In this document: one piece after another, positions 48,716 through 51,303 of the stretch
Numbering within the stretch: the first letter of the stretch is position 1
Layout of the letters: every line of letters starts with the position of its first letter
Assembly: GCF_002563955.1 (NCBI RefSeq)
Contig: NZ_PDJE01000001.1
Location: 1,488,001-1,552,000 of the forward strand
Length of the DNA stretch: 64,000 nucleotides
DNA from: Paramicrobacterium agarici
Lineage (GTDB): Bacteria > Actinomycetota > Actinomycetes > Actinomycetales > Microbacteriaceae
Direction of reading: 5' to 3'
The notes under the pieces: generated by a model
What the model was told of the DNA's origin: nothing
The model's database searches: none
The model's input: only the letters and a program-made list of their open reading frames with translations
Translations under genes and position numbers: made by a program

Positions 48716-48717
48716 GC

Positions 48718-49185
48718 TCACGCGCGCTCGCCGAAGCTCGGGGGAAGCTTGCACAGGTCGTAATAGTGCTCCTGCGGAAACGCGGGATCTGTCGCGTCCA
48801 CGATGAAGTTCGCTTTGCCATGGGGCAGAGTGCCGTCGGAGAACGTCCACACCGTGTAGTGCCAGACGCCGATGACGGCGGCATTGAGCAATCGTTCGCC
48901 GTCGACAAGCAGAATCACATCATCGCCGTTAGCGAGATCTCCGGCGCGAAAGGGCTCGACGGTGTCAGAGCGAAGCGTGGCCTCATCCACAGAGCCGAGC
49001 GACATCCGTGTCACGTGTTGGCCGCGTTCCCGCAGCGCCTGCGCGGCATCGTCGGCGAAGGCGGCTGCTGCGGCAGCATCCGTGCCCTCAACGGCAACGA
49101 GGCGACGTCCCCGCGCATTGTTGTGCAGAATTTGCTCGACGATGCGCGAGACGAGAGCGTCGCGACGTTCCGGGTGATCGGTCAT
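48718..49185 (-). CDS. Uridine-kinase-like protein lacking the P-loop
   Basis: A 155-residue protein with the layout of actinobacterial uridine-kinase-like P-loop proteins: a strand RRLVAVEG, a helix FADDAAQALRERGQHVTRMSL, then RAGDLANGDDVILLVDGERLL and WHYTVWTF. Where Walker A (GxxGxGKT/S) should be, the sequence is EGTDAAAAAAF, with no glycine-lysine-serine. It therefore probably cannot bind ATP in the normal way. It is convergent with ackA, with only two bases between stops. Function unknown. Confidence 0.6.
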   Translation of the reverse strand: MTDHPERRDALVSRIVEQILHNNARGRRLVAVEGTDAAAAAAFADDAAQALRERGQHVTRMSLGSVDEATLRSDTVEPFRAGDLANGDDVILLVDGERLLNAAVIGVWHYTVWTFSDGTLPHGKANFIVDATDPAFPQEHYYDLCKLPPSFGERA

Positions 49186-49391
49186 GCATCCAGGGTACGC
49201 GCAGCGTCAACGCGATTCTGTCTGGGGAGCCGCGGCCATACGGAATAAGGATACTTTCCGAACAAAATACGCAATCTTGAGGAATTCTTTGGATATTGCT
49301 GACATCGACCGCCTAATGTGAGTGTGTCATGTCCCCCACATGGCCGACAAGATCCTGTCGATGAACCCGTATTTGTACCCGGAGTGTCCCT
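49186..49391 (+). promoter_or_regulatory. Promoter and leader region of the SipW cassette
   Basis: This 206-base gap is visibly more AT-rich than its surroundings (AT-rich stretches around 49240-49315). A possible -10 TAATGT occurs at about 49314-49319, and CGGAG sits 9 bases before the ATG at 49392. No clear operator was identified. The long leader may carry regulation. Confidence 0.4.
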
Positions 49392-49811
49392 ATGTCCTCG
49401 TCTGCTACAAAGACCAAACCTTCAACCCGCAAGATCGCCGCGTTCGTTCTCGCGGCACTCGGCATCGCCGGCCTTTCCGCCGCGTCGGCCGCTAATCTTG
49501 CACTCGGCTCGTCAACCCTTGGCGCCGGCCAGCAGGTTGTTGCGTCGTGCCAAGAGAGCGATGCAGACCCGATCGACCTGTCGTTCAGCACCGCGCTCTC
49601 GGCTGGCAGCTACCAGGCGCAGGCGCTCACGTTGTCGAACATCAGCGACGCGTGCTCCGGACTTGACTACAAGGTCGCCGTGAATGGCGCGGAGGTGGCG
49701 ACGGGATCCCTTGACCCGATTACGGCCGGCACTCGCGGCGTGCTCGAGATTCCGCTGACGTCGACGGCTGCCGCCGATGTCGAGTCCGTCTCTGTCGTGA
49801 TCTTCAACTAA
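49392..49811 (+). CDS. Small secreted protein with SipW-type signal peptide
   Basis: A 139-residue protein: basic N-terminus (KTKPSTRK), hydrophobic core IAAFVLAALGIAGLSAASA and cleavage expected near ASA-AN. The mature ~105 residues are Thr/Ser/Ala-rich, with beta-strand character and two cysteines (VVASCQES and SDACSGLDY) that could form a disulfide. A TasA/camelysin-like role as a fibre or surface subunit is inferred because a SipW-type signal peptidase follows 11 bases later. No enzymatic motif is visible. Confidence 0.78.
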   Translation: MSSSATKTKPSTRKIAAFVLAALGIAGLSAASAANLALGSSTLGAGQQVVASCQESDADPIDLSFSTALSAGSYQAQALTLSNISDACSGLDYKVAVNGAEVATGSLDPITAGTRGVLEIPLTSTAAADVESVSVVIFN

Positions 49812-49822
49812 CGATCCACGGC

Positions 49823-50416
49823 ATGCTCCGCAATCGCACGCACGTCAGATCCCGTGAGGATGCTCCTCACGGGATCTGGCGTCGCGTGCGCGGGGCGGTG
49901 ACAACGTGCCTGTTCGCTGCTGTGGTGCTGCTCTTCTGGCCCGCGTCCCTCGGCGGATGCAGCACACTCACGATCGTCTCCGGTCACTCGATGGATCCGA
50001 CCTACCACACAGGCGACATCGTCTGGGCGCGCTGCGGAGTGCCGCAGATCGGCGACATCGTCGTCTATCAGCCCGATGGAGTCGAGGGCGCTCGCGTCAT
50101 TCATCGCATTATCGATGGCTCGTCCGTCGGGTGGACGATGAAGGGCGACAACAACGACGCCATCGATCCGTGGTCGCCGAGCCAGGCGGACATCATCGGC
50201 GTGGCCCAGGGTCACATCCCGGGAGTCGGCAAAGTATTGCTCGCCTTCGGTCATCCTCTCGTCTGGATCTCGTTGCTCGTGCTCGCGGCCGCACTTCTCG
50301 TGTGGCCGCAGAAGAAGTTCGATGGCGAGGCTGCTGACCACGCTGCGGAGAGTCTCTCCGTCAACGGGCCGGCGCAAACGCAGCAGCTTCAGGATGCTTC
50401 GAAGGTGACGTCGTGA
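49823..50416 (+). CDS. sipW: Signal peptidase I, SipW/ER type
   Basis: A 197-residue membrane peptidase. One N-terminal membrane segment (about 24-45) precedes box B SGHSMDPTYHTGD with catalytic Ser56; the general base is His94 in GARVIHRIID rather than lysine, the mark of SipW/archaeal/ER-type enzymes. GDNNDAID (108-115) is the box E-type motif. A second membrane segment (about 138-160) anchors the C-terminus. It lies between two secreted-protein genes that it presumably processes. The downstream gene starts inside its stop (GTGA). Confidence 0.9.
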   Translation: MLRNRTHVRSREDAPHGIWRRVRGAVTTCLFAAVVLLFWPASLGGCSTLTIVSGHSMDPTYHTGDIVWARCGVPQIGDIVVYQPDGVEGARVIHRIIDGSSVGWTMKGDNNDAIDPWSPSQADIIGVAQGHIPGVGKVLLAFGHPLVWISLLVLAAALLVWPQKKFDGEAADHAAESLSVNGPAQTQQLQDASKVTS

Positions 50417-51237
50417 AGACGGTTCGACGTGTCGCACTGATGAGTTGCGTGCTGATTGCCGCTGCATCACTGGTGTCGTCGAACGCGTCGAATCTGGCGA
50501 TGACCGGTGCCCTTCTCAGCTCGCATTCCGAGGTGCGGTGCGCCGACGCGGCAGAGGTCCAGCCGGCATCAGCAGATGCTGCTGCAACGGCGGTATCCGT
50601 GACGCTCGCAGATGCTACGCCGGAGTGCGCTGGCGCTGACGTGTCCATCGCGCTGATCGGCATGGATGGAACCTTGCTCAGTAGCGTTCAGACGACGCTT
50701 CCGGAATCAATAGCCGCATCGATGTCGCTGAGGGTTCCGGAGTTCAAGCCATTCGCTGTGCGAACCGCGGCGATGACCATTGCGTCATGGGCTCTGCCGA
50801 CGACGTGGACGTTCGACGGTACCGGCGCATCGTGTGAGGTGTTCGACGTGCGGACCGAGCAACCGATGCCCGGTGCGTCGTGCTCGCTCGGAGAACCCCT
50901 CATCGAATGGGCAAGTGCAGACTGGAAGAACCTTCGCGTTTCCTTTATTCCCGTCACGAAGTCTCTGCCTACGATCGACGGCGTCTATCCTGCCTCTTAC
51001 TACGCCTACTACGCGTTCTCATTCACAGTGAAACCCGATAGTCCGGAGTGGTGGAGCTGGGGTGCATCCGGATTCCGCGACTCGAGAAACAACTGGTGTT
51101 CTGCCTCGCTCGAGCCGCTTTCTGACGGACTCTGGGTGACCGGACGCACGGGCGACAATATTGCCGCCGAGAATACCTGGGGCATCCTCTTCGATATCGG
51201 GCAGAACGGCATCACAGACATACAGCTCGAATGCTGA
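50413..51237 (+). CDS. Larger secreted protein of the SipW cassette
   Basis: A 274-residue protein with signal peptide MKTVRRVALMSCVLIAAASL and a cleavage region SSNAS-NLAM that resembles the ASAANLAL of the first cassette protein; both mature ends carry (A/S)NLA. The mature chain has several cysteines (RCADA, PECAG, SCEVF, SCSLG, WCSAS and a C-terminal LEC) and many aromatic residues near YYAYYAFSF and EWWSWG, suggesting a compact extracellular fold. No family was recognised. Coupling by GTGA to sipW makes it a probable dedicated substrate. Confidence 0.75.
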   Translation: MKTVRRVALMSCVLIAAASLVSSNASNLAMTGALLSSHSEVRCADAAEVQPASADAAATAVSVTLADATPECAGADVSIALIGMDGTLLSSVQTTLPESIAASMSLRVPEFKPFAVRTAAMTIASWALPTTWTFDGTGASCEVFDVRTEQPMPGASCSLGEPLIEWASADWKNLRVSFIPVTKSLPTIDGVYPASYYAYYAFSFTVKPDSPEWWSWGASGFRDSRNNWCSASLEPLSDGLWVTGRTGDNIAAENTWGILFDIGQNGITDIQLEC

Positions 51238-51303
51238 GAACGTTGGCCGCATCATCATTCGTGTGCCCGGCACGTGGCGCCGCGTCGCGCGAGACAGGTG
51301 TGA

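Follow-up and report, generated by a model that had tools for sequence, protein, structure and literature searches.

A conserved cassette with an ER-type signal peptidase between two secreted proteins of an unnamed family, similar to sipW-tasA in layout

Introduction

Signal peptidases I of the ER type, archaeal or eukaryotic-like, use a Ser-His dyad and not a Ser-Lys one. In the tapA-sipW-tasA operon of Bacillus subtilis, the signal peptidase gene is located between two genes for secreted proteins, and TasA uses an N-terminal donor strand (PMC9674648). Resistance of TasA to LepB was found to depend on residues around the cleavage site, including an aromatic residue at P2' (PMC10269814).

A trio with a comparable layout, P1-PEP-P3, is described here from the window, the whole 64,000-nucleotide stretch of Paramicrobacterium agarici DNA that was analysed. 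P1 and P3 belong to a family that recurs in tens of species, yet a search for a Pfam or NCBIfam model of it gave none. If the interpretation proposed below is true, actinobacteria would possess a second, unnamed surface-protein route with a dedicated eukaryote-like signal peptidase, and peptidase recognition could be tested in a single three-gene operon carrying candidate substrates and a short common junction.

Operon layout and the peptidase

The trio had been described as three co-directional genes with the last two coupled by GTGA in a sequence-only reading, and both points are confirmed, as all three genes lie on the plus strand and PEP and P3 overlap by four bases (Table 1). On one side the trio is flanked by ackA and a small divergent gene (48718-49185, minus strand), and on the other by csrA and flagellar genes, as named from their translations. 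The gap at 49186-49391 holds no cassette gene, and a search for promoter-like and terminator-like sites found none.

Table 1. Features of the P1-PEP-P3 cassette in the window
Feature	Position	Strand	Remark
P1, small secreted protein, 139 aa	49392..49811	+	ORF
PEP, ER-type signal peptidase, 197 aa	49823..50416	+	ORF, TIGR02228
P3, secreted two-domain protein, 274 aa	50413..51237	+	start overlaps PEP stop (GTGA)
P1 junction A-S-A-A-N-L, residues 31-36	49482..49499	+	conserved proposed cleavage region
P3 junction S-N-A-S-N-L, residues 23-28	50479..50496	+	P1 consensus
Perfect 19-bp hairpin	49842..49882	+	starts 31 nt past P1 stop, overlaps first PEP codons as called
P3 N-terminal domain	50488..50814	+	homologous to mature P1
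P3 C-terminal domain, four Cys	50818..51234	+	no assigned family, weak CBM2-like sandwich hint

PEP passes TIGR02228 at 54.3 bits against a cut-off of 51.85 (54.6 bits in the genome search). Ser56 and His94 are invariant among six aligned trio peptidases and fall opposite the Ser-His pair in alignments to SEC11A (E 4.3e-12) and SEC11C (E 6.9e-12), which bears out the ER-type dyad originally noticed at these residues, and a GDNN motif lies at residues 108-111. Against the SipW equivalog NF046067, PEP fails with 30.8 bits for a cut-off of 190. Because TIGR02228 is passed and the SipW equivalog is far off, the ER half of the initial label "SipW/ER type" is right, while a strict SipW assignment is not.

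Conservation and distribution of the trio

A P1 search of 398 genomes of the family gave matches in 11, own genome included, and a P1 profile search across the class matched 16 of 394 genomes; in the four other members of the genus neither P1 nor P3 was found at E 0.001. The order P1-PEP-P3 is repeated around the P1 matches and in a Demequina locus. Among the loci found by P1 similarity, the peptidase adjoins P1 in 10 of 12; the two misses are L028, cut by a contig end, and L021, an orphan P1. This orphan is a second P1 copy in genome G080, without an adjoining peptidase.

Searching named genomes with the peptidase alignment gave 173 confirmed relatives, of which 79 loci were kept, carried by Cellulomonas, Actinotalea, Sanguibacter, Arthrobacter, Demequina, Flavimobilis and others, and then by Chloroflexota and Dormibacterota. 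Within 1500 bp of the peptidase, a P1-type gene was found upstream in 76/79 loci and on both sides in 59/79, these matches coming from an iterated profile and being weakest in Chloroflexota. Seventeen loci have the upstream gene only, among them L071 and L072, which end soon after the peptidase, and three have no P1-type gene (L094, which begins near a contig end, L095 and L108). The base rate is low: a clear P1-type neighbour occurs in 2 of 30 TIGR02228 loci kept from relatives (L144 and L147), the peptidases of both of which fall in the trio clade, and a third locus, L122, gave a P1-type match of E 0.0026 only, on the other strand. A rough SipW-junction pattern is present in 11 of these 30. 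The four-base overlap of PEP and P3 is kept in 40/52 loci, counted over 52 of the 58 P3 loci with six left out for over-long peptidase ORFs. The neighbourhood search advised at the outset thus finds the trio conserved beyond this genome, and its recurrence in tens of genomes is, on sequence comparison, more than chance. In many of the loci L090-L104, mostly of Chloroflexota, the open frame that contains the peptidase extends over about 500-900 codons, and may represent a fusion to a large secreted part.

The peptidase tree separates all 88 trio-side sequences from 26 others with an SH-like support of 96. The control peptidases L123, L125, L139 and L146 have no row in this tree, L094, L095 and L108 are included without a P1 neighbour, and two sequences appear in duplicate, one as L018/L147 and one as L118/L129. 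The split is support and not proof, because FastTree warned of long branches, and the clade of 79 loci exists partly by construction, since these were chosen by similarity to trio peptidases; L144, L022 and L024-L027, found without a trio peptidase query, also fall on the trio side. PEP of the window groups with Sanguibacter, Flavimobilis, Arthrobacter and an uncultured Cellulomonadaceae (support 88) and not with the other Microbacteriaceae trios. This grouping and the lack of P1 and P3 in the other genus members together suggest that the operon arrived by transfer.

The P1/P3 protein family and its signal-peptide junction

The mature parts of the outer proteins contain cysteines, as stated at first inspection: two in P1 (53, 88) and six in P3 (43, 72, 141, 157, 229, 274), of which 141, 157 and 274, in the second domain of P3, are nearly invariant. 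Mature P1 aligned in hhalign with the N-terminal domain of P3 at 97.7% (E 2.3e-12) and with the C-terminal head of collagen-like proteins from four small-genome loci at 97.4% (E 1.2e-11), and the P1 profile alone recovered P3 in its own genome (E 1.9e-5). These profile comparisons unite P1, the P3 N-terminal domain and the collagen-like protein heads in one homologous family, for which Pfam and NCBIfam have no model. Neither the homology of P1 and P3 nor the hairpin at 49842-49882 had been mentioned in the sequence-only reading.

Neither P1 nor P3 matched a Pfam or NCBIfam family above cut-off, and their relatives (38 P1 and 26 P3 members) gave none apart from scattered matches. The first impression that the larger protein has no family to be named agrees with this and extends to P1; an unrelated known family, which would have spoken against the initial proposal, was matched by neither. 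Most family links depend on iterated profiles, similarity between single sequences being low: single-sequence tblastn matched P1 in 15 and P3 in 7 of 91 loci, and at E 0.001 the single P3 sequence recovered no relative when searched against 58 other genomes. The 91-locus set leaves out L021 and L028, which lack a peptidase, and includes four duplicates, L062, L069, L078 and L080, which share their contigs with L019, L020, L029 and L023.

The junction reads SAANLA in P1 and NASNLA in P3, and the similarity of the (A/S)NLA junctions that had been pointed out corresponds to a consensus common to both families, A-S-A-[A/S]-x-L-x-[L/V], with one invariant Ala (38 P1, 26 P3). The signal region of P1 is more conserved than its mature part (2.97 versus 2.38 bits per column). 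Aromatic residues around the junction are found in 1/38 P1 and 0/26 P3 sequences, so that the TasA-style reason for a dedicated enzyme is not applicable here. Their scarcity makes the case that PEP processes P1 and P3 weaker without overturning it; the junctions are A-x-A sites of an ordinary kind, and cleavage by a general signal peptidase might also occur.

A hairpin after P1

The perfect stem is contained in the RNA of 49805-49905, for which a folding energy of -63.7 kcal/mol (z -9.5) was computed. A hairpin of z>3 against dinucleotide shuffles follows P1 in 48/66 loci (73 minus seven near-copies) and is weak or absent in the other 18. Controls at the same threshold gave 1/66 inside P1, 8/65 upstream, 3/132 at random places, 1/43 after PEP, 1/43 inside PEP and 6/53 after P3. 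Strong hairpins, at a score cut of 35, were kept in 44 of the 73 loci, and one of the 44 has a T-rich tail (five or more T in 12 nt). From genus to genus the stem sequence varies; in 12 Cellulomonas stems, chosen for likeness out of the 44, 5 of 17 pairs are changed on both sides, a number reached in 0/500 shuffles. The hairpin lies wholly before any PEP start in 6/43 loci, and the PEP frame is open through it in 37/43. Presence of the hairpin after P1 in 48/66 loci suggests that P1 is made in excess, and the hairpin would then serve to hold PEP and P3 below the level of P1.

Proposed working of the operon and alternative readings

The explanation that we favour, with modest confidence, is that the trio constitutes a dedicated, self-contained processing-and-display operon, like sipW-tasA in its working and with unrelated substrates. 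PEP, from a clade that travels with the P1/P3 family, would remove the signal peptides of P1 and P3 at A-S-A-[A/S]-x-L. P1, modelled as a single beta-sandwich with one likely disulphide, would be the abundant subunit, and the hairpin would lower expression of PEP and P3 relative to P1 through termination, protection of the mRNA end or slowed PEP initiation. P3, in which a P1-like domain is joined to a second Cys-rich domain, would serve as a minor, larger partner, perhaps as tip, anchor or ligand-binding protein, so that P1 and P3 together would coat or project from the cell surface. Operon layout, homology, conservation and the hairpin are computed results; cleavage by PEP, surface location, stoichiometry and any polymer are inferences. 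As far as genes alone can tell, the operon may build or decorate the cell surface.

With lower confidence, P1 and P3 may instead be binding proteins, secreted or attached to the surface and not polymeric, such as polysaccharide binders or surface adhesins, with a common export peptidase. Cellulomonas and its relatives are numerous among the carriers, and a CshA-like adhesin is located in the same interval in the sister species G001. Among PDB profiles, the second domain of P3 is weakly similar to the CBM2-type domain of xylanase D (E 0.08-0.12), with a Cna-type protein at 0.011. The direct comparison of this domain with CBM2 (PF00553) in hhalign reached 6% over 84 columns only, and no CBM2 match was found in Pfam; at the level of sequence, the likeness is a weak hint. 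Furthermore, in L018, L019, L020 and L023 P3 is a short protein that does not extend beyond the first domain, so that binding cannot depend on the second domain everywhere.

A sharper form of the favoured reading is that P1 and P3 polymerise through donor-strand exchange and form a surface fibre, in which P1 would be the main subunit and P3 the nucleator or tip, in the manner of TasA and TapA; this seems somewhat unlikely to us. In its favour, both proteins keep the L-x-[L/V] behind the junction, which would be expected of an N-terminal donor strand; collagen-like proteins, too, are capped by the P1 domain; and the hairpin fits an excess of P1. The structure prediction proposed earlier for P1 gave a beta-sandwich in the model without a clear fold match. 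This model has seven strands, with pLDDT of 83-92 by blocks from residue 51 and below 50 over residues 11-36; in that of P3 the first domain is confident and confidence is below 60 from residue 201 on. No fold match reached E 0.001. Against a fibre of this kind, the seven strands of the P1 model stand without a partner while its N-terminal segment is of low confidence, the L-x-L may simply be the first strand, and no fibre protein stands out among the fold matches. A broader extrapolation, speculative and held with still less confidence, is a new surface-assembly class across Actinomycetota, Dormibacterota and perhaps Chloroflexota, in which small Ig-like subunits freed by a dedicated ER-type peptidase would form filaments via the conserved L-x-L laid bare by cleavage and be used alone, P3-tipped or on collagen stalks, in a ratio set by the hairpin.

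Membership of the trio in the SipW/TasA/camelysin system as a divergent branch is very improbable. It would be suggested by an ER-type peptidase that passes TIGR02228 and is placed between two secreted genes as in tapA-sipW-tasA (PMC9674648). The comparison with TasA and SipW-dependent families, put forward as a check by the sequence-only reading, gave no membership by any route. P1, P3 and the 38 P1 and 26 P3 members match neither the SipW-type signal (TIGR04088/TIGR04089) at E 0.01 nor TasA/camelysin PF12389, and PEP falls far short of NF046067 as described above. As a positive control, a classical SipW substrate elsewhere in the same genome scored 28.4 for a cut-off of 19; the sole PF12389 match of the genome, 21.7 against a cut-off of 22.5, is at 315 kb, outside the window. 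Profiles of mature P1 and P3 compared with a rough set of 29 SipW-type sequences gave 0.13% or less, and when the signal peptide was retained, P1 reached 11% over 14 columns and P3 5% over 4. The genome has a separate classical SipW cassette (L030; G000:C1, about 313-315 kb) with a TIGR04088-type substrate, and no P1-type gene neighbours it.

The csrA and flagellar neighbourhood

The proximity of csrA and the flagellar genes had been linked with a switch between motility and adhesion. This link does not hold across the family: pta, ackA, the small divergent gene, csrA, flhF, flhA and flhB gave no tblastn match in any of the 91 related loci, examined with flanks of up to 6 kb, and a link to motility is therefore not a property of the cassette. 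That CsrA binds the hairpin and switches the cassette against motility is the least credible reading, for although csrA ends 66 bases from P3 on the opposite strand and the hairpin in the window has AGGATG near its tip, csrA and flagellar genes are beside 0/91 related loci, GGA occurs at the tip in 8/44 loci against 131/880 background 14-mers, and GGA in the window is paired and not in the loop.

The stretch beside ackA (48716-51303 in the window; L115-L118) differs among all five genus members and holds secreted or surface-type genes in at least four of them. Between ackA and csrA, G001 has a classical SipW cassette as well as its CshA-like adhesin; near ackA, G002 and G003 encode SipW-type proteins together with an ER-type peptidase, and G004 has other genes, csrA being inside the examined stretch for G001 and G004 only. 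Near ackA in G003 (L115:7006-9966), a 987-aa protein without a Pfam match is encoded, and an opposite frame shows a long run of short repeats.

Comparison with known systems

The catalytic subunits SEC11A and SEC11C of the eukaryotic signal peptidase complex have the SM-P, H-R and GDNN motifs in common with PEP. Unlike them, PEP has no recognised partner subunit in the operon and adjoins its presumed substrates.

With bacterial collagen-like proteins (PF01391), the family shares a P1-like head, carried on a G-X-Y protein in L022, L024, L025 and L026 of small-genome Microbacteriaceae. Each of these adjoins a P1-type gene and an ER-type peptidase; the one collagen-like protein compared with PF01391 scored 22.4 against a cut-off of 27.2. 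Unlike these loci, the operon of the window has no collagen-like gene. In L022, L024, L026 and L027, translations also revealed adjoining proteins, about 220-280 aa long, that share a motif, the one of L024 having no Pfam match.

Actinobacterial classical SipW cassettes, which combine TIGR02228 with TIGR04088/TIGR04089 substrates, have a peptidase of the same superfamily as PEP, and such a cassette occupies the ackA-csrA interval in G001. They differ in that trio peptidases lie across the split of support 96 and that the substrates are not detectably related.

The tapA-sipW-tasA operon of Bacillus subtilis differs from the trio in its substrates, as P1 and P3 have no detected homology to PF12389 or to the TIGR04088 signal and a junction nearly without aromatics. 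Common to both are the layout, with an ER-type peptidase between two secreted proteins, and, as proposed here, one abundant and one accessory protein and a role at the surface. In conclusion, the cassette is real, conserved and unnamed; by the tests made it is not a member of the SipW/TasA family, and in layout it is like sipW-tasA.
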